From positions 1-25,358 of IMG/VR virus record IMGVR_UViG_3300032213_001749: DNA of 25,358 nt; one strand, written 5' to 3'. A model generated the notes under the pieces. The model saw only the letters and a program-made list of their open reading frames with translations. It had not been told where the DNA came from and did not search any database. The position numbers and the translations under genes are program-made. This DNA comes from a virus. This document shows positions 3,751 through 20,733 of this stretch, one piece after another (the stretch's first letter is position 1; the number at the start of each line of letters is the position of its first letter).

Positions 3751-5445
3751 TCAGCCCGCAATCCCGGCATGGTCGCACCGCACGTCCCAATCGACCTTCG
3801 CCACGCTGCCCGCTGGCAGGTCGCGGTAGAAGTTCGGGTCGTAATCGCCTCGGTGCCCGTGGTGCAGCACTGTGCCCAGCAGCACGCTCGCCCGCAGCAT
3901 CACGCAGCCAAACCCGTTGCCGCCCACCACCTCGACGCCCGTGCCTGGTTGGCTGTACGCCTTGCCATCAGCCCGCCACGCAACGTACGTCGGCTGGTAT
4001 CGCGAGCGGTACACGCCCGACACGCTGACGGTTGCCGGGTCGAAGCCACGCAGCAGACGCTCAACGGCGTCGTCTGGCGGCAACACGTCATCCTCGACGA
4101 TCATTGCCCACGGCGTCGCGATCTCCTGCCGCACCCGGTTGTAAATCCTTGGCATGGCCCGCTGGACCGCCCTGTACGCTTCCTGCTGCGTTCGGTCCGC
4201 GTCCGCCAGTCCGGCATCGCCCACGTCTAAGGCGACGTATTGCACGTTGGGATAATCGCACGTCATCAGCCACGCCCGCACCTCGCGGGCAAAGTCCGCA
4301 TCGGACGAGGTGTTGACCAGCAGCAGACGCACCTGCCCGTGCGGCCATGTCTGCCACTCCAGCCAGTTCCGCAGGCGAGGCCACCATTTCCACCGGCCAG
4401 ACAACGGCACCGCAATCGTCACGTCGTCCGCTGCGATTGCCGCGAGGTCGTAGTACGTCGCCTGCCGCTGGACGATCCGCCAAGACATTGACCCGCTGTG
4501 TTTTCGGTAGCGGTAGACTGATGGCGTTTTCACCGCCCGCCAGCCGTCCCGCATGATCGCCCGCCAGAGTTGCCAGTCCTCCAGCGACAACGGCAGCTTC
4601 GGTCGCTCCAGCCCCCGCACGGACTCGACGGCCACCCGCCGCACGACTGACCCGGCGTGGATGTAGTTCTCGCGCGTGATGTCGGCCCGTGACGGATCGC
4701 GAGGGTGAACCATGCGGCCCGAGTCGGCCCCAAACGTCACCATGTCCGTGTAGGCAATCGCCGCCCCAGGGTCTTTGTCCAGTGCAGCGACCGCCGCTGC
4801 GAGGTAGTCCGGGGCGAGCGTGTCGTCAGCATCCAAAAAACAGAGCAGGGGAGCGGTTGTCGCACGCATCCCAGCGAGCCGGGCCGGGTTGACGTTGCCC
4901 ACCTCGACCCGCAGATACTTCACGCCACGCGCCGCGTAGCGACCCGCTACATCTGGTGTAGCGTCGGTGGACAAGTCATCGACGACCACGATTTCAGCAG
5001 GCCGAGCGGTCTGGGCGAGAACGCTATCGAGGCACTCCGCGAGGTAGCTGCCGTAGTTGTGGCACGGGATGACGACGGCGACCGGCGCGACAGGCCGCAC
5101 GTCTGCCCGGTCGTCGCACTTGCGGCAAACCTTCACCGCCGGGATGGCGTGCTGATTGACCGTGCAAAGCTGGTGCAGATCGCACGCGAATACGTCCACC
5201 TCTGGCCCGCCAATGCAGCGTTCAAGGCGGCAGGTATCTTTCCGCGAGAACGCCCCCCGGTGAGCGCAGGGCAGTTCGTCCGGCGTCTTCAACTCGCGTT
5301 CCGGTGCGGGCTTCGCATCTTTGGCAAACGCCTCGCGGTAGTCCGCCCGCGTCTGGCAGAGGTGATGCAGGCGCGGCGTCATCTGCCGATTGAAACGGTG
5401 GCACATGCCGGGCGTGTCGCAGTTGCAGGGCGCGGGCGTGTTCAT
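3751..5445 (-). CDS. Two-domain glycosyltransferase with Cys-rich N-terminus
   Basis: The ATG overlaps the preceding stop (ATGA), giving 564 residues; a longer open frame upstream is rejected. Residues 1-115 hold 13 cysteines (7, 9, 15, 30, 60, 72, 77, 88, 94, 107, 110 among them) and several His, suggesting zinc-binding knuckles. Residues 122-320 are a GT-A, family 2 domain: VVIPCHNYGSYL start, Asp156-Asp157, the DAD metal site at 205-207, the ED pair at 289-290 and YRKHSGS at 313-319. Residues 342-560 look like a second GT-A-like domain with Glu451-Asp452-Asp453. Family 2 enzymes move a sugar from a nucleotide sugar to an acceptor. As the last gene of the tail operon it may glycosylate a virion protein or the host surface to block superinfection. 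Acceptor and sugar are unknown. Confidence 0.85.
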   Translation of the reverse strand: MNTPAPCNCDTPGMCHRFNRQMTPRLHHLCQTRADYREAFAKDAKPAPERELKTPDELPCAHRGAFSRKDTCRLERCIGGPEVDVFACDLHQLCTVNQHAIPAVKVCRKCDDRADVRPVAPVAVVIPCHNYGSYLAECLDSVLAQTARPAEIVVVDDLSTDATPDVAGRYAARGVKYLRVEVGNVNPARLAGMRATTAPLLCFLDADDTLAPDYLAAAVAALDKDPGAAIAYTDMVTFGADSGRMVHPRDPSRADITRENYIHAGSVVRRVAVESVRGLERPKLPLSLEDWQLWRAIMRDGWRAVKTPSVYRYRKHSGSMSWRIVQRQATYYDLAAIAADDVTIAVPLSGRWKWWPRLRNWLEWQTWPHGQVRLLLVNTSSDADFAREVRAWLMTCDYPNVQYVALDVGDAGLADADRTQQEAYRAVQRAMPRIYNRVRQEIATPWAMIVEDDVLPPDDAVERLLRGFDPATVSVSGVYRSRYQPTYVAWRADGKAYSQPGTGVEVVGGNGFGCVMLRASVLLGTVLHHGHRGDYDPNFYRDLPAGSVAKVDWDVRCDHAGIAG

Positions 5446-6251
5446 TCGGTGATCGTCGCAAGCTGGTAGATCGATCCGCGCAGGTTCGACACGTTGCTGC
5501 CGTTGCTCAGCAGGTAGTCGGTTGCACCGGGGTAGAGCGTCGTGCGAGCGGTGTTGATCGAAACGCCGGTAGACTCGACCAGGATCGGCGCGCACGTTGT
5601 CGCCGTGCCCCCGCCAAACCACATGCCGCGATAGGATTCGACGAGCGGCGACGTGCTGACGCGCTGGCCGTACCACGGCGTAAAGGCGGGCGTTGACGAA
5701 CTGCACACCCTGCGAAAGTCCACTGTGTACCGATCCCAACCCTCCTGATCCGTGGTCGCTTCCTGCTCCTCGTCGAACACCCACGCGAGAACGCACGACC
5801 CAACCCCCGGCACATCCTCGGCAGTCGGCGTTCCAACCGAGAAGTCCGCCAGTTGCGCGAACGCCAGACGACCAGTCACGCCGGACCCGGAGAACACGTT
5901 GTCGCCTAGATCGGCAACGTCCATCGACCCGCTGACGTACCACCCCGCAGGCCGGTAAAAAATTCGCCCGATGGGATGCGCTGCCCCGGTGTTGAGGTTG
6001 ATTGGCTGGTCGTACGCCTCGGGAATAGACGTTGCGTAGGTGAGCGTGATTGGCGACGACGTTTCGAGAAGCGTCGCCACGTCACCAGTCGGGCAGAACA
6101 CGTTTGAGCCGGGCGATGTCTCGGCAACGGTGTCGCCCCAAAGCTGGAACTCGACCGTCAGCGTATTGACCGCGTTCGACGCATCGCCACGGAAGATTCG
6201 ATCCACACAACATGCCGTCGTGCAGCAGCAAGCCCCCATTCCCATTCCCAC
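5442..6251 (-). CDS. Hypothetical tail-associated protein with Cys-rich N-terminus
   Basis: GTG 6251 is preceded by AAGGAG at seven bases, so it is preferred to the two following ATGs. The 269-residue protein starts MGMGMGACCCTTACC, with five cysteines in the first 15 residues. It is otherwise beta-rich with many Ser, Thr and Gly, like receptor-binding or tail-decoration proteins. No domain is recognised. It begins one base after the stop of the previous gene, and its TGA overlaps the start of the glycosyltransferase, so it is part of the late tail operon. The clustered N-terminal cysteines could bind metal or form disulfides. Confidence 0.65.
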   Translation of the reverse strand: MGMGMGACCCTTACCVDRIFRGDASNAVNTLTVEFQLWGDTVAETSPGSNVFCPTGDVATLLETSSPITLTYATSIPEAYDQPINLNTGAAHPIGRIFYRPAGWYVSGSMDVADLGDNVFSGSGVTGRLAFAQLADFSVGTPTAEDVPGVGSCVLAWVFDEEQEATTDQEGWDRYTVDFRRVCSSSTPAFTPWYGQRVSTSPLVESYRGMWFGGGTATTCAPILVESTGVSINTARTTLYPGATDYLLSNGSNVSNLRGSIYQLATITE

Positions 6252-6521: not shown

Positions 6522-8573
6522 CTACACCCCCGCCGCGATGTCGTCAAACGTCTGGAGCGTTAGGACCGTCGTCATTTGCGTGAACTCAATGCCCGTGATC
6601 TGCGGATATCGCTTTGTGGCATTCGTCGCGGCGTTGCTGTTGAACGACAGGCCGCGCCCTTCCACCTCTTTGACGAGGTCGCCGATTTCGTATTCAGGGT
6701 GGTAGCCTTCAAGCGTGACCTGCGGCGAGACTCTGGCAGACTGCTCTTGGTCTCGCAGCTTGATGGCGTACGTCTCCAGTGCCGTCGTGTCGTCCGCAGT
6801 GTCTGCCGTCGAGAGCGGCGTAATCAACGCCAATTCGCTGTAGCGGGATTTGTACGTCGCCCCGCTATCGGTGATCCGCACCCGCTTATGGAACCGCCCC
6901 GACAGGTCAACCACCAGCTTGATATCCTCAGCATTCGGTGACGTTGCCGCCCGTGAGGATGTGTAAGACAGCCGCTGGTCGGATCGCAGGCACGCGGTGA
7001 TCCGCAATTGTGCGTCAGCCCCCAGCGCGATCAGTTGTTCCGGCGGCTTTTGCCCCGTGAACAGGATGCCGCATTCGCGTTCTAACACTTGATAGTGCCC
7101 GTTCGTGAGCGACAGAACATCTTTCCAGTAGCCGGTGTACGCGGGCGTGCCTTCTTCAGCGTACGCATCAGCCGGGACAAAGTATTCGACCAGCACATCC
7201 CGCCGTCCGTCGTCGGCCCGCTTGGTCAAAGGCGCGTAGAACTTCCGGCGTCGGCTGATGTTGTTCGCCCCGAGCGGACGCAACGCACCTTCACCCGCAG
7301 CCCGGTCGAGGATCGCGTTCACGTCGAAAGTCGTGTTGCCGGTCCGCGTTGCCGTGTAGTCGCCGACTTCGTTCAACACCCACTTCCGCCACACGTCGGG
7401 CTTTTTTTCGTACTGGCTCGGAAGGTCGGTTGTCGGGTCGGTTGACTTGGCCAGCGCGTCAGCGGTCAGGCTGTCATCGCTCGCCACCCATGCACGTTGA
7501 AGCGGAAACGTCCCTTCGACTTCGAGATGCGAGCCGTACGCCTGGACGATGTTGAACGCCTCCGCAATGTTCCATTCGCACGAAACCGCCGCGACGTTGG
7601 CCGTGTTGGTCTTGCGGTCCTTGCCCTCGGCAGGCAGCTTCACCGTTTTTTCCGTGCCGGTCCCGCGTTTGAACACCGTGATCCGCCGTTGAACTTCGTC
7701 TTCGTCGGAACTGTTTTTGCCAATTGAGTAGCGGACAAACCAGAGGTAGCCGTGAGGCACCAGCAGCTTATCCAGCGCCTCGGGCAGGTAGACGCCGCGC
7801 GGAATCGTCCAGTCCCGCAGCACCGGCGCGGAGTCAAACACCTTCGCCAGCGCCTGAAAGTCGGGATTCTTGATGTACTCCTCATCGGGGTTGAGCAGGT
7901 AGCACAGCGACATAACCGCCTGTGCAAGCGTCCATTCCTCGGCAGACTGGTCAAGAATGGTTTGTGCCCCGGTTGTCCGCACCGACTCCGGGTCGATCCA
8001 TGTGTACCATCGCGACCCGGTTGCCGCGTCGAGTTCGATGTACCAGTTGCTTCGGTTGTTGAGAATCCGCCGGTCAATCTCCGGGTTGAAGCGTACGTCG
8101 TCTTCGATCGTCCGGTAGACGGTCTGCGCCGATTCGTCCTCAGTCTTGAAACGCCAGCCCACGAGCGGTGTGCCAAAGTGCCATTGCTCGGTGCGTGCGG
8201 TCGCCTTCGCGATCTGCTGGCCCCGGTCGTCGAGAGTCAGCGAGGCAACGCCCATTTCGCCCCGGAACACCACGTCGGCAGGCGGTGACGTTTCTTCGTC
8301 ATCCTTCGCCGCTGGTGCCGCGATAACGTCTACCTTTTTGCGGTAGTCCACCGGCGTCTTGATGTCCGCGATAATCTTGTCAGTCGCGTACGTGAACTCC
8401 GCAGTGTCCAGCCGCTGCCCACCCGCAGACCGCTTGATTGACTCGACGCGGTACTCTTTGGTTTCGTCCGTGTCGTCTGGCTGGTCGTCGCCGTCCGACA
8501 GGCGCACCGCGAAACGCTGCACCGGCTGGGATGCAGTGTTGTTGACCTTGCTTGTGAGCGGCGGAGCAGCCAT
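6522..8573 (-). CDS. Baseplate/tail-hub-like protein
   Basis: This 683-residue protein starts with an ATG overlapping the preceding TAA (TAATG). The N-terminus has the feel of a phage hub protein of the gpD/gp44 type: alternating strands about residues 20-125 (YRVESIKRSAGG, AEFTYATDKI, VFRGEMGVASLTLDD). A central helical and aromatic region follows. The C-terminal segment (about 600-683, beginning YHPEYEIGDLVKEVEG) reads like the final beta structure of tail-hub proteins (PQITGIEFTQMTTVLTLQTFDD). Hub proteins cap the distal tail and hold the tape measure and fibres. Placement after the tape measure and fibre genes fits. The homology is inferred from pattern and context only. Confidence 0.5.
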   Translation of the reverse strand: MAAPPLTSKVNNTASQPVQRFAVRLSDGDDQPDDTDETKEYRVESIKRSAGGQRLDTAEFTYATDKIIADIKTPVDYRKKVDVIAAPAAKDDEETSPPADVVFRGEMGVASLTLDDRGQQIAKATARTEQWHFGTPLVGWRFKTEDESAQTVYRTIEDDVRFNPEIDRRILNNRSNWYIELDAATGSRWYTWIDPESVRTTGAQTILDQSAEEWTLAQAVMSLCYLLNPDEEYIKNPDFQALAKVFDSAPVLRDWTIPRGVYLPEALDKLLVPHGYLWFVRYSIGKNSSDEDEVQRRITVFKRGTGTEKTVKLPAEGKDRKTNTANVAAVSCEWNIAEAFNIVQAYGSHLEVEGTFPLQRAWVASDDSLTADALAKSTDPTTDLPSQYEKKPDVWRKWVLNEVGDYTATRTGNTTFDVNAILDRAAGEGALRPLGANNISRRRKFYAPLTKRADDGRRDVLVEYFVPADAYAEEGTPAYTGYWKDVLSLTNGHYQVLERECGILFTGQKPPEQLIALGADAQLRITACLRSDQRLSYTSSRAATSPNAEDIKLVVDLSGRFHKRVRITDSGATYKSRYSELALITPLSTADTADDTTALETYAIKLRDQEQSARVSPQVTLEGYHPEYEIGDLVKEVEGRGLSFNSNAATNATKRYPQITGIEFTQMTTVLTLQTFDDIAAGV

Positions 8574-12829: not shown

Positions 12830-13010
12830 GATTGTCTTCTATGAGTTGCTGCGGTTCGCCTGCGTTGTTGGGTTTCTGTTTTCGCTGGTGGCTCTTGCGA
12901 GTATTGAGGGGGCTTGGAACGGGGTTGTTTGGTCGTGCCTTTTGTTCATCGCAGCCGATATTGCAGCTACCTTCCGCCGGTCCCAGCAGCAGCCGAAGCA
13001 GGCTTCTTAG
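12828..13010 (+). CDS. Possible two-helix membrane protein on the opposite strand of the tail operon
   Basis: ATG 12828 is preceded by AAAGGTGA at about five bases, a good ribosome-binding site on the plus strand. It opens 60 codons. Two hydrophobic helices are visible (about residues 6-26, LLRFACVVGFLFSLVALASI, and 29-48, AWNGVVWSCLLFIAADIAATF), followed by a polar tail (RRSQQQPKQAS). The order resembles a small holin or a superinfection-type membrane protein. Many codons end in T, unlike its neighbours. It fills the only sizeable gap in this stretch of the late operon, reaching 44 bases into the antisense of the tape measure gene. No convincing plus-strand promoter was found, so translation is unproven. 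Confidence 0.45.
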   Translation: MIVFYELLRFACVVGFLFSLVALASIEGAWNGVVWSCLLFIAADIAATFRRSQQQPKQAS

Positions 13011-14460
13011 GAATCGCGGGCTTCTCGATTACCACTGGTGGCTTGGCCGTGTTCTTGACCAATTCACGCAGCAACTGCTTTTGATCCTCAGAGGACTTGA
13101 GCAGCGCCGCTGCGTCCGACAGCCCGGCGGCAGTCGCACCGATTGGCTTTGCTGGATTCATTGCATCGCCGCCAAACGACAACGCCAGCGCCGTCTCGTC
13201 ACTCGCGCCCATGTACTTCAATGCGCGTGCTGCGGCAGTACCAAAGTCCGTAGACGCGGCTGATTGCCCTGCGTTGCGATCCCGACGGCGCACCGCCTTC
13301 AACTTTTCGTCAAAGCCGGTGTCTCGCGCCGCTGCCTCTTCCTCGTCGATAACCTGCTGCCGTCGCACCGCAGCACCTTTTCCGCCAGTCGCTCGATTGG
13401 CCGCTGCGGTAAAACCGGCCTCGTCGGCCTGCTGCTTAACAAGCGCGTTCAGCTTTTCTCGGTTGTCGATGAACAGCGATGCCGCTCCAGCCGCTTCGGT
13501 GCCAAACAATTTCTGAAGCTGCCCGGCTCTCTGCTCCGGTTTCAGTCGCTCAAGCCCCGTGGCCAGAGAGTCGAGAACTTGGCCAATGTTTTCGCCGAGG
13601 AGGTCAACATCCTCGGGCTTTAACCCCATCGTCTTCAACACGTCCTCACGCTGCTTGTCACCCTTCGCGCCCATCAATCGCTCGCCAACAATCTTGATGC
13701 CGGTCGCAGCGTTGTCGGCACCGAGAACGTCTTTTCCTACAGTCATCATTCCCAGCAGTTCAGGGATTGAAGCACGGCCCTTGAACGACAGCCCCTTTCC
13801 AGCGAGTTGCGACAGGTCCGATAGTTGGATGTTGTTCGACTCAAAAAGCCGCTGCGTTCCCTGCATTACGACCTTGAGGTTTTCCGCGTTGAGTTTCTGA
13901 CCTTGAGAGTTCAACAACTGAGACACTGACTGCGCCAGTGCCGTCGTGTCTTGACCTTGAAGGTTCGATGCCGCAGCACCCTTGATGAACACGTCCAGCG
14001 CCGCACCAGAGGCGTCTTTGGCGCTGAATCCAGACGACACCAATTGCGTAGCCGCTGCCGCTGTCTCCTCAGCCGTGAACCCGTATTTCTTCGCAACCCC
14101 GAGAACACCGGCTTGAGCGTCAGCCGATTCAAGATCGTTCAATGCCGCCTGCACCCGTAGCTTTCGGAACAGGTCGTCATACTTCAGCGCAGCCGCGCTC
14201 GCCTGCTCGATCATCTGCCGATTAGCGTCGATGACTCCGCTAAGCGCGCCTTGGAACGTCAACGCTCCAGCAGCCATCGAGGCCATCCCGGCAACGCCCT
14301 TAGTGAAAAACCCCTCTTGCGTTTTGGCTGATTTCGCCTGTGCCTCTTCCATCTTGCCGATACGCGCAATCACCGCGTTGATAGCGTTCTGCTGCCGATC
14401 CCAAGCCGCCTTAGCGCCTTGGTCGTTCGCGGTGATGTCGAATTCGGCTTTCGCTGTCAT
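12967..14460 (-). CDS. Tail tape measure protein
   Basis: ATG 14460, preceded by GGGGTGG, gives 497 residues; a GTG nine bases upstream is less likely. The protein is Ala/Gly-rich and helical throughout. It has a hydrophobic patch (about 48-75, GVAGMASMAAGALTFQGALSGV) and the tape-measure core (about 85-290) with FTAEETAAAATQLVSSGFSAKDA and GERLMGAKG. It ends in an Ala/Pro/Lys-rich tail. Tape measure proteins fix tail length and are ejected ahead of the DNA. At the usual 0.15 nm per residue this would mean a tail of roughly 75 nm, which is only a rule-of-thumb inference. Its start overlaps the stop of the frameshifted chaperone extension (ATGA). Confidence 0.85.
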   Translation of the reverse strand: MTAKAEFDITANDQGAKAAWDRQQNAINAVIARIGKMEEAQAKSAKTQEGFFTKGVAGMASMAAGALTFQGALSGVIDANRQMIEQASAAALKYDDLFRKLRVQAALNDLESADAQAGVLGVAKKYGFTAEETAAAATQLVSSGFSAKDASGAALDVFIKGAAASNLQGQDTTALAQSVSQLLNSQGQKLNAENLKVVMQGTQRLFESNNIQLSDLSQLAGKGLSFKGRASIPELLGMMTVGKDVLGADNAATGIKIVGERLMGAKGDKQREDVLKTMGLKPEDVDLLGENIGQVLDSLATGLERLKPEQRAGQLQKLFGTEAAGAASLFIDNREKLNALVKQQADEAGFTAAANRATGGKGAAVRRQQVIDEEEAAARDTGFDEKLKAVRRRDRNAGQSAASTDFGTAAARALKYMGASDETALALSFGGDAMNPAKPIGATAAGLSDAAALLKSSEDQKQLLRELVKNTAKPPVVIEKPAIPKKPASAAAGTGGR

Positions 14461-14570
14461 CGCATCCACCCCAACAGAACAAGATCGCCCAACGTCGGCA
14501 CAAACTTCGGCAACAAACCATCACGCCACGCCCGGACCCTCAAGAGGTGCGGGCTGCGGACTCCCCCGCG
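14457..14570 (-). CDS. Frame -1 extension of the tail assembly chaperone (T-like)
   Basis: In the -1 frame relative to the upstream gene there is an open window from 14570 (just after an in-frame TAA at 14573-14571) to a TGA at 14459-14457 that overlaps the tape measure ATG. It encodes RGGVRSPHLLRVRAWRDG and continues to LVLLGWMR. It has no good start codon; only a TTG overlapping the zero-frame TGA is available, without a ribosome-binding site. The five-G run at 14567-14563 (GCG GGG GAG) is the only obvious slip site in the window. This is the arrangement of lambda G/GT, so I read it as a C-terminal extension made by -1 frameshifting. Confidence 0.5.
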   Translation of the reverse strand, partial: RGGVRSPHLLRVRAWRDGLLPKFVPTLGDLVLLGWMR

Positions 14571-15229
14571 TTAATCTCCGTCTTCAGATTGAGCAGCTTT
14601 TCGCGGTCCACCGTCGCACCCATCGCCCCAATCCAGCAGTCCGAATCGAGCAGACCCAGCGCGTAAACCATCTCGGGCACAAGGCGATAGTTCACCGCCA
14701 GCATTTCCGCGACGTACATGCGGCAGAGCTTTTCCGGCAGCAGCACGCCCTTATGGAAGTGATCCGCGAGCGTGCCCAGTGCCCACGTCGCCCGGTTCTC
14801 AATGTGCCGCCATTCATCCCGCGTCCGTCGCACCTCGTCGCCCGTCTCGTCGATGTCGTACACCGCAGGCAACTGCATCACGTTGGGCAAGACGTACTCG
14901 TTACCGTCGCCCATCGGCATCGAGTAGCCCTTGATGCAGTTTGCTCTGGCCAGCCCTTCGGGGTTCGGCTTGCGGTCGGTCTGCACCCCGAGCCAGTAGC
15001 CGCCCGGCATCTTTCGCCACGTCTGCCGCGCAGGGTCGTAGACGACGGCGACACTGTTCGACGGATTGCGCGGATCGCCCCAGGTGCAGAACAGCCCCGG
15101 TTCGTCGCTCGGCGTGACCGGCGACGTGAACCACTTTTCATTCCCCGCCAGTGAACTCAGTCCCGTCGCTTGGAACGTCGTCTTGCTCTGGTTCGTCGCG
15201 TTCGGGAAGAACAGCAGGTAGGAGTTCAT
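14540..15229 (-). CDS. Putative tail assembly chaperone (G-like)
   Basis: The 229-residue protein from ATG 15229 (AAGGTG upstream) lies between the tail tube candidate and the tape measure gene, where tail assembly chaperones sit. The sequence is not recognisably homologous to lambda gpG. It has a central WRHIENRATWALGTLADHF helix and a C-terminal helix (EMVYALGLLDSDCWIG) before the polar end (EINAGESAARTS). The assignment rests on position and on the -1 frameshift architecture at its 3' end. Such chaperones coat the tape measure and recruit tube subunits. Its 5' end overlaps the upstream 52-codon gene by 92 bases in another frame, so the true N-terminus could be further downstream. Confidence 0.5.
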   Translation of the reverse strand: MNSYLLFFPNATNQSKTTFQATGLSSLAGNEKWFTSPVTPSDEPGLFCTWGDPRNPSNSVAVVYDPARQTWRKMPGGYWLGVQTDRKPNPEGLARANCIKGYSMPMGDGNEYVLPNVMQLPAVYDIDETGDEVRRTRDEWRHIENRATWALGTLADHFHKGVLLPEKLCRMYVAEMLAVNYRLVPEMVYALGLLDSDCWIGAMGATVDREKLLNLKTEINAGESAARTS

Positions 15230-15307: not shown

Positions 15308-16231
15308 TTACGAAATCGCGGTTGCTAGTGACTGCGACAGGTTGCCGACGATCTGCGCCGAAATCGTGGTTGTCACGTCGCCCATGCCGCTGACGTTCTG
15401 CCCGGTCACGTTCCACGCCCCTGTGCTGGCCGAGAACGAAACGTGTTCGGTCGTCGCGAACGCAACACGACCGCCGCCCGTAGCCGCGACCTTCTGCAGG
15501 TAGACCACAACGCCGGTCCCCGAAAACGCGGAGATGATGCTGTCCAGCGTCGAAATCATGGCGGGATTCAGGACTTCGATTTCAATCGTCGGCGTCCGCT
15601 GCGTGATGCTGACCTGCGTTTGGAAGATCGCCCCGCTGGCCCGCGATCCACTTTCGACCTTCAGGCCGGAATTGATCGTCACTTTGGTGACACCAGCGAC
15701 CGCAGTGCCGTTCGCGTAGACCGGCCCCAATGCCAACCGCGAGTTGATCGCAGGCGACCCAGCGAGGCTCTGCGAAGTGTTCTCGGTAATCGGTGCCGTG
15801 TAGCCGGGCGAAGCCCCACCAGACAGGGGAATCAGTTCGAGCGTGCCTTCGGCCCCGTCCGCCGCATCCTGCGAGGCGCTGATCGAAGTCCAGTAGAGGA
15901 ACCCGTCCGTGCCGTTGAGCGTGACGTGGTTCGTGCTGCTGGCAAACGTGCCGCCCGCCAGCCTCTTCTGGTACTGCACTTCCCACGCCCCAGCCGCGAC
16001 CGACTGGCCCGCCGTCAGCGTGCAGGTCGAAAGCACGGTCTGAATGTCGCCCGTCGTGATCGTGATTTTCGGGTCGGCGTAGTTGGCCGCAATCAGGGCA
16101 GCCGTCACCGCACCGCCCGGAATCGCGATCATGTTCGTTACGCCCGAGTTGTAGGCGACCGACCGCACGTCGTTGATGGTCGTCGTGTCGAACGAACACG
16201 GGTAGGAACCGTGGCGAAGTGGCGTAGACAT
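15308..16231 (-). CDS. Probable major tail tube protein
   Basis: The 307-residue protein begins at an ATG overlapping the previous stop (TAATG), with AGGGGA five bases upstream. It is rich in Ser, Thr, Ala, Gly and beta-branched residues and lacks enzyme motifs, as tube subunits do. A duplicated feel is visible (KITITTGDIQTVLS...VSITQRTPTIEIEVLN), consistent with one or two tube-type beta sandwiches plus an Ig-like part. Tube subunits polymerise around the tape measure to form the DNA channel. The assignment comes from gene order: after the terminator and gp10-like genes, before the chaperone and tape measure. Confidence 0.65.
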   Translation of the reverse strand: MSTPLRHGSYPCSFDTTTINDVRSVAYNSGVTNMIAIPGGAVTAALIAANYADPKITITTGDIQTVLSTCTLTAGQSVAAGAWEVQYQKRLAGGTFASSTNHVTLNGTDGFLYWTSISASQDAADGAEGTLELIPLSGGASPGYTAPITENTSQSLAGSPAINSRLALGPVYANGTAVAGVTKVTINSGLKVESGSRASGAIFQTQVSITQRTPTIEIEVLNPAMISTLDSIISAFSGTGVVVYLQKVAATGGGRVAFATTEHVSFSASTGAWNVTGQNVSGMGDVTTTISAQIVGNLSQSLATAIS

Positions 16232-18660: not shown

Positions 18661-20733
18661 CTACGCACCGGCGGACTTGTACATGCCCTTGTGGTCGATG
18701 GCTTTCACACCGATATCGAGAACGATGTCCCAGCCGATGCCGTACTGGCCCTTGTCGAGATTGAACCGGCGAATCTGAGGAGCGCGGCCCGTGCCCGACA
18801 GGTAGCCCACTCGGACGGTGCGACCCGGTTCCGAAGCGAGGAACCAGTTCGTCGCCGTCCCGGTGTAGGCCGTCTCGGTGGCCGGGTCGATCACGCCACC
18901 AGCGTTGAGCCGGTTATCCATAACCAACTCGATACCGAGGCCGTTCAGCGTGTTGGCGTTGCCGCGTTCCGTCACGCTGCCAGCCGTGCCCGCAATGACG
19001 ATGCCGGTCGATTGCAGAAGTTCACGAGCGGTGAACATCAGGTCGGACGGAATCAGCATGTAGCGCGGCTTGATGTTGAGTTGCTTCACGCCACCGGTCG
19101 GGTCGTACTTCACGACCTTTGCCATGGCGGTGATCGCGGTCTTCAGCGACGAAGCCGACAGAGCCGAGCTACCACCCGTAGCCAAGTTCGCGTGCCCCGT
19201 GCCGGTCGCCGTCTGGGCGGTCGCGTTGAACAACGCCCCACCCGTCGCCGAAAGCGTCGGATTGGCCAGCAACAGAGCGTAGACGAGGTCAGGCCGCAGG
19301 TTGCGAGCAGTCTGCCCGTACTCGGTCGGCAACTGGTTGAAGAAGCCCAGGTTTTCGTCGACGATGTCCTGCTCGTCGATCACCATCTGCTGCGCGTAGC
19401 GGGCGATCTTGTACTGCTCGCGCTTGTCGTCGGTCTGGCCGTGTTCAGCCGTCCCGCCGCGAGGCAGTTTCTTCATCCGCGTCACGCTGCCCGGAGTGAT
19501 GATGTCGTTCGTCTTGAAGTTTGGAACATCCTCTTCCGAACACCAAACCGTGGTGTCGTCCGTTTCCTGATACGCAGCCAGCAAACGGGCCTGCATCGAG
19601 GTCGTGAACACGAACGACAGCGTCGAGCCAGACACCGCCGCACGGATGTAGCTCAGGTTTCCAGCCGGGTCGCTGTTGTTGTGGGGATCGCGCGCACAGT
19701 CGATACGGGCGCACTCGCGAACCATCTCCATCAGCGAATAGCCCGCGTAGCGTTCCGCCGTGTTGGCGACCTGCTCCCGCGTGGCTTCCGGCTGCGCGTT
19801 GAAGTCGTACGTCCCGCACCGCTGTTGCAGAGCGGCAACCAGCACGTCTTTCGACAGGTCGGTTTCTTTGTTGCGAACGTGACCCGCCGGGGCTTCTCCA
19901 GCAGGCTTCGCCGTCTTGGCGCGGACATGCTCTAGAGCGGTCGCGGTGAACCGGGCCGTATCCCAACCCTCGGTGATCGAGCGGTTGACAACGTCTTCGG
20001 GAACGTCTTTTCCGGCGATCTTGCGAATCTCCGCGATACGGCTGCGTTCCGACTCGACGGCTTCGCGACGCAGCTTGTCGGCGTCAATCGCCATCCGCGT
20101 CACGTCCGGCACCGGCGTAGCGCTGACATTGGTGGACACTTCCGAGCGAACCGCCGTCTCAGCGGTCTGCTCAACGGCAGTTTCTTCGGCCATGTTCCCG
20201 TCTCCTGTGGTGGTTACGTCGGCGCGAAACTTGGCTGCTTGATCCGCGCCAACGGGAACCAAGCTCACTTCTCGAATCGTGTATGAGGTCGTGACACGCA
20301 GAGGTCGCGGGCCAGTGCGATACTCCAACCCATTGACCATCCGGGCTGAGTTGGCCGGGATCTCCTCCCAGTTGTTGACCCGGTAGCCGATAGACACGTC
20401 TGTCAGGTGCCCTTGCCGCAGCAAGTCCCAAGCGCGGTTTCCAGCGTCCGTCTCGGCAAACGCCACCCGCCCGACAACCCGATTGCCTTCCAGCCGAATA
20501 TCCCGCACCGATCCGCGAATGTTGTCGGTCGAGGTCGTGTTGTGGCCGTCAATGAGCGGCAGTTGCGTCCCGAATTGCGCTCCGTCAGCCCGCAGCACTT
20601 CCTCTACGATGCCCTTGCCGCTGCGGACCATCGACGGAGTTTCTGTCGATAGCACCGCCTCGACGGAGCGGGTCGCCTCGTCAATCGTGCCGGGCGTCAG
20701 CGTCATTGCGCGGGTTGTAATCTCGCAGGTCAT
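18661..20733 (-). CDS. Prohead protease-major capsid protein fusion
   Basis: The 690-residue frame starts with an ATG overlapping the portal stop (ATGA). Residues 1-180 are an HK97-type (S78) prohead protease: His in LPLIDGHN (about 63), Ser in LTDVSIGYR (about 113), and the REVSLVPVGAD strand with the likely third residue (about 152). Residues 181-300 are charged and helical, like a scaffold/delta region. Residues about 310-690 match the major capsid type often found fused to such proteases (MQARLLAAYQETDDTTVWCSEEDVPNF, PRGGTAEH, then KPRYMLIPSDL, VMDNRL and NWFLASEP). The protease processes scaffold during head maturation; the capsid part builds the shell. An internal start at 20193 probably makes capsid alone (see next entry). 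Confidence 0.88.
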   Translation of the reverse strand: MTCEITTRAMTLTPGTIDEATRSVEAVLSTETPSMVRSGKGIVEEVLRADGAQFGTQLPLIDGHNTTSTDNIRGSVRDIRLEGNRVVGRVAFAETDAGNRAWDLLRQGHLTDVSIGYRVNNWEEIPANSARMVNGLEYRTGPRPLRVTTSYTIREVSLVPVGADQAAKFRADVTTTGDGNMAEETAVEQTAETAVRSEVSTNVSATPVPDVTRMAIDADKLRREAVESERSRIAEIRKIAGKDVPEDVVNRSITEGWDTARFTATALEHVRAKTAKPAGEAPAGHVRNKETDLSKDVLVAALQQRCGTYDFNAQPEATREQVANTAERYAGYSLMEMVRECARIDCARDPHNNSDPAGNLSYIRAAVSGSTLSFVFTTSMQARLLAAYQETDDTTVWCSEEDVPNFKTNDIITPGSVTRMKKLPRGGTAEHGQTDDKREQYKIARYAQQMVIDEQDIVDENLGFFNQLPTEYGQTARNLRPDLVYALLLANPTLSATGGALFNATAQTATGTGHANLATGGSSALSASSLKTAITAMAKVVKYDPTGGVKQLNIKPRYMLIPSDLMFTARELLQSTGIVIAGTAGSVTERGNANTLNGLGIELVMDNRLNAGGVIDPATETAYTGTATNWFLASEPGRTVRVGYLSGTGRAPQIRRFNLDKGQYGIGWDIVLDIGVKAIDHKGMYKSAGA
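20191..20206 (-). promoter_or_regulatory. Internal ribosome-binding site for a protease-less capsid protein
   Basis: On the minus strand, AGGAG (20206-20202) lies eight bases before ATG 20193, in frame at residue 181. The sequence before it completes the protease domain, and the sequence after it begins MAEETAVEQ. Translation from here would yield a 510-residue scaffold-capsid protein (18661-20193). This gives many capsid subunits per protease, as lambda does with C and Nu3. Confidence 0.7.

Follow-up and report, generated by a model that had tools for sequence, protein, structure and literature searches.

A putative tail assembly chaperone gene with a probable −1 frameshift at G_GGG_GAG in a tailed-phage late operon

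The window analyzed here is the whole of an IMG/VR viral record, 25,358 bases long, whose minus strand carries a tailed-phage late operon. The genes follow one another in the order terminase, portal, fused protease-capsid, several small genes, putative tail tube, a 229-aa gene and tape measure. The tape measure protein (TMP; 12967..14460, minus strand, 497 aa) was recognized by PF10145 (PhageMin_Tail, 46.3 bits against a cut-off of 33.2) and also matched several TMP PHROGs. The putative tail tube protein (15308..16231, minus strand, 307 aa) is conserved and without a family match, and was named by position only. The 229-aa gene (14540..15229, minus strand) extends from ATG 15229 to a TGA at 14542-14540, and the MNS.. 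N-terminus that follows this start is kept in all close relatives. By synteny, its zero-frame product is a G-like protein; the name putative tail assembly chaperone is taken from its position together with the frameshift pattern described below. Two further reading frames of the operon were noted. A 690-aa ORF (18661-20733, minus strand) resembles a fusion of prohead protease and gpT-like major capsid protein and matches phrog_4523, 'major head and protease protein'. A small ORF beginning MAEEQKPHKQYGGPVPQPQ... (15295-15140, minus strand) follows the putative tail tube gene and overlaps the start of the chaperone gene by about 90 nt. It has a counterpart in the relatives L001, L003, L016 and L017, and in L008/L009 the counterpart ends at the chaperone ATG.

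On the minus strand, the zero frame of the chaperone gene ends in ..GAG ATT AAC GCG GGG GAG TCC GCA GCC CGC ACC TCT TGA. The five Gs shortly before this stop form part of the heptamer G_GGG_GAG (14561..14567, minus strand). In the −1 frame, a TAA at 14573-14571 stands just ahead of the G run, and from there the frame stays open to a TGA at 14459-14457, which overlaps the TMP ATG at 14460-14458. Entry into this frame at the G run would yield a T-like extension, GGVRSPHLLRVRAWRDGLLPKFVPTLGDLVLLGWMR (14457..14567, minus strand). The only usable start codon within the extension is a TTG at 14543-14541, which shares the letters TTGA with the chaperone stop. The initial annotation had proposed a −1 frameshift at this place, and every coordinate it gave for the G run, the zero-frame stop and the limits of the open −1 frame proved right. 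Its description of the extension as lacking a good start codon likewise held, as did its comparison with the lambda G/GT gene order: the two-frame gene lies directly upstream of the tape measure gene, which begins at the stop of the T frame. When 15 CDSs of the window were scanned, G_GGG_GAG in the slip register occurred once in 5,551 codons, exactly at the chaperone site. The bare string GGGGGAG is not rare, with 2 occurrences in the window against 3.6 expected, so the evidential weight of the heptamer comes from its conservation.

Relatives were collected from IMG/VR scans with the chaperone, capsid and tail tube proteins as queries; the tape measure protein as query retrieved none. Six close relatives have chaperones 94, 93, 67, 65, 43 and 41% identical to that of the window. 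All six carry NNG GGG GAG T at the same place with an open −1 frame, and the extension reaches the tape measure start in each except L003, whose sequence breaks off inside it. A comparison of relatives had been set beforehand as a check on the frameshift candidate, and it came out in favor: both frames and the slip site are kept, the −1 extension contains no stops, and the G run is retained throughout the close clade. The start codon of the extension is not conserved among the relatives, while the T frame itself is open and conserved. Between lineages, the protein alignment of the −1 frame gave z values of 20.8, 11.6 and 13.8, against −0.4 to 3.4 for the other two frames of the same segment. 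Within close pairs, the codon changes in the extension divided into synonymous and nonsynonymous changes of the −1 frame as 4 vs 1, 3 vs 1 and 6 vs 3.

The slip site itself varied less than its surroundings. The GGG-GAG codons were identical in 32 of 32 inter-lineage comparisons, compared with 729 of 1593 (0.458) for same-amino-acid codons upstream or elsewhere, and this pair ranked at the top of 19 eligible two-column windows of the alignment for codon identity. The interval in which a slip could occur in all close relatives extends from the −1 TAA of the window to the zero-frame stop of L016/L017, where the zero frame ends in GGG GAG TCG TGA or TAA. The G run is the only slippery sequence within this interval.

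More distant members of the family were reached with profiles. The tail-tube profile led to L030/L031, the capsid profile to L037, L044 and L047, and the chaperone profile to L057. An alignment joined the chaperones of L030, L037, L044 and L047 to the window's family, with 22-35% identity to L030; that of L057 matched the family's profile at 5e-47. Four of these sequences carry a run of A at the codon homologous to GGG GAG (A9 in L030 and L037, A10 in L044 and L057), and in all four the same T-like core follows in the −1 frame. The core reads approximately W-x2-G-x3-P-x-F-x-P-T-x2-D/E-L, from which individual members deviate; examples are RLEWERWRAGLDNKFRPTLAEL in L030 and RWLMFRLWYAGKSPRYRPTMADL in L037, against LLRVRAWRDGLLPKFVPTLGDL in the window. 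In L030, L037 and L044, loci of 12-19 kb with 55-63% GC, the A9-A10 run is the only run of at least eight As. Thus, the expectation that relatives keep the G run held for the close clade, while the distant clade has another slippery run (A9/A10) instead. The two-frame arrangement is common to ten sequences from several metagenomes. On sequence grounds, every member that has the extension can be accounted for by a −1 shift at the homologous slippery run. L047 (10203-10841) belongs to the chaperone family but has no −1 extension, and there the chaperone stop and the ATG of the tape measure gene overlap. Close to its end, the L047 chaperone gene nevertheless contains a GGGGG run. In L057, an extra ORF of about 209 codons (6827-7454), unlike anything at this place in the window, separates the T extension from the tape measure-like gene.

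Other searches returned little beyond this family. Neither the G protein nor the T domains had a significant match in Pfam or PHROG, and PDB profile searches gave no meaningful one. Scanning GTDB genomes with the alignments of chaperone and capsid found no relatives, and among named phages there were no convincing chaperone relatives and only distant capsid similarity. AF2 models of the chaperone (pLDDT 49) and the putative tail tube protein (pLDDT 31) were too poor for use.

Downstream of the heptamer, the RNA may fold into a hairpin (CCGC.GCCCG.ACCT / GGGT.CGGGC.GTGG; 14526..14559, minus strand) with a predicted energy of −19.6 kcal/mol. The GCCCG main stem starts 6 nt downstream of the heptamer, the outer CCGC/GTGG pairs 1 nt downstream, and the zero-frame stop sits in the loop. 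A hairpin of about −20 kcal/mol was predicted in each full-length close relative. L001 resembles the window, with the inner GCCCG stem at 6 nt and the outer stem at 1 nt, and in L008/L009 and L016/L017 the main stem also starts 6 nt after the heptamer. The stability falls within the lowest 1-2.5% of windows in each contig; 4-13% of synonymous-codon shuffles per sequence were as stable, only a modest excess over what the codons themselves provide. Between lineages, the pairs start at the same place in different registers. Covariation was considered and is not claimed, since the pairing registers differ. The hairpin, a predicted stimulatory element, is likely. Upstream, a GGAG (14576..14579, minus strand) lies 8 nt before the heptamer and could serve, with weak to modest support, as an internal Shine-Dalgarno stimulator of the dnaX kind. 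Pairing to the anti-Shine-Dalgarno sequence upstream of the slip site was better than the median in all 10 members (top 2-28%); motifs similar to GGAG occur in most of them, and the GAG codon is invariant in the close clade. An Rfam scan of the junction gave no match.

The T frame could also be reached by termination and reinitiation, in which ribosomes ending at the chaperone TGA would start again at the TTG and make a separate protein of about 28 aa. The possible start overlaps the stop in the window (UUGA), and UGAUG is found at the same alignment position (L-M-x3-W) in L001, L008, L009, L037 and L044, which makes reinitiation a serious rival. These UGAUG overlaps may be a chance product of Leu-Met codons, or a reinitiation site. 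However, the overlap codon varies, being TTG or ATG in the window clade, ATG in L008/L009, CTG in L016/L017, GAG in L030 and AAC in L057, and a conserved start codon overlapping the upstream stop in the UGAUG manner is absent from L016/L017, L030 and L057. L017 has GTA in place of the GTG that overlaps the TGA in L016; the substitution is silent in the −1 frame and keeps a zero-frame stop while abolishing the start. Moreover, reinitiation would cost L030 and L057 conserved residues: the zero-frame stop comes after the conserved RW in the former and, in the latter, within the core behind RWRAGL. It would also leave the invariant G run and the upstream A9-A10 runs unexplained. Given the variable overlap codon, the GTA of L017 and the stop positions in L030 and L057, reinitiation fails as a general mechanism, and we consider it quite improbable as the route to the T frame. 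A combination, in which a fusion is accompanied by a free T-like micro-protein of about 28 aa reinitiated at the UUGA or UGAUG of several lineages, is unlikely; if true, one short segment would supply both G-T and T alone.

The same fusion would result from transcriptional slippage, in which RNA polymerase slips on the homopolymer run and produces mRNAs that read into the −1 frame. Runs of nine or ten As, as present in the distant relatives, are long enough for this, whereas five Gs are short for polymerase slippage. In addition, conservation in the close clade reaches the AG that follows the run, and the predicted hairpin lies at ribosomal spacing; a polymerase would require neither. This explanation is therefore very improbable. 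That there is no functional shift at all, the −1 frame of only about 37 codons in the window being open by chance through an assembly error or in a pseudogene-like remnant, deserves hardly any credence, since the same arrangement and frame-specific protein conservation in ten sequences from several metagenomes refute it.

The locus is thus very probably, judging from the compared sequences, a chaperone cistron of the lambda G/G-T type with a −1 programmed frameshift on G_GGG_GAG. Most ribosomes would terminate at the TGA at 14542-14540 and release the 229-aa G-like protein, whereas a minority would pause at the hairpin and slip back one base on the heptamer. In a tandem slip, the tRNA-Gly on GGG would re-pair with GGG, and the tRNA-Glu on GAG would re-pair with GGA through a G:U middle pair; alternatively, the P-site tRNA may slip alone. 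After the shift, these ribosomes would translate another 34 codons in the −1 frame before terminating at the TGA that shares bases with the tape measure ATG; their product would be a fusion of about 257 aa with a C-terminal T-like domain. By analogy with lambda, the G part would bind the tape measure protein and the T part would recruit tail tube subunits, so that the slip rate would set the ratio of G to G-T. In the lambda-type cassette the fusion is a minor product that tail assembly requires, and the same analogy putatively extends this trait to the present locus.

Comparison with known systems places the locus in a familiar class. The canonical slip heptamer of lambda is G_GGA_AAG. The locus shares with lambda the order tail tube (putative here), G, T in the −1 frame and tape measure, a slip (probable here) near the end of G, and a T frame that ends at the TMP start. 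It differs in its slip site, which the initial annotation had already set apart from the canonical GGGAAAG heptamer and which lacks the canonical X_XXY_YYZ form, in an extension of only about 34 residues, and in G and T parts without detectable similarity to curated families. That form is usual in lambda-type cassettes but dispensable, as the GGGGGAA of SEA-PHAGES illustrates. The class of lambda's heptamer has been described, and the G/G-T arrangement is widely conserved among tailed phages (PMC5009743). The closest counterparts of the present site are of the GGGGGAA type. G_GGG_GAA is a documented slip site of phage tail assembly chaperones and is frequent in SEA-PHAGES, where it is called 'fivetwo' (PRFect, PMC10885494); corynephage phi16 has a published GGGGGAA site with an internal Shine-Dalgarno sequence and a pseudoknot (PMC5506516). 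Common to these sites and ours would be the form G_GGG_GAR, on which tRNA-Glu can re-pair to GGA through G:U, together with an internal Shine-Dalgarno-like motif and a downstream structure. The window differs from them by one wobble base (GAG instead of GAA), by a chaperone family without known relatives, and by a simple predicted hairpin where phi16 has a pseudoknot. GGGGGAG as a named site was not found in the phage frameshift literature searched. The A9-A10 runs of L030, L037, L044 and L057 are instead similar to the A_AAA_AAG of dnaX and the AAAAAAG site of phage AH2 (PMC3483164), while the window clade has G5AG in place of an A run.

The arrangement is therefore known from lambda; what is new is a chaperone family that no Pfam or PHROG profile covers, and the occurrence of two types of slip site, A9-A10 and G5AG, among its members. 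An unrecognized family of tail chaperones is thereby added to the G/G-T class, with two kinds of slip signal at the same codon. Such natural variation could be used to explore what makes a sequence usable as a phage slip site, and the locus can serve as a model for annotating short T domains of the sort that gene callers overlook. Two minor observations concern other parts of the window. A 730-aa protein with a GT2 glycosyltransferase domain (PF00535) is encoded downstream of the phage tail genes (3751-5943, minus strand). An AAATTTT close to the end of gene 9933-9259 resembled a second slip site.
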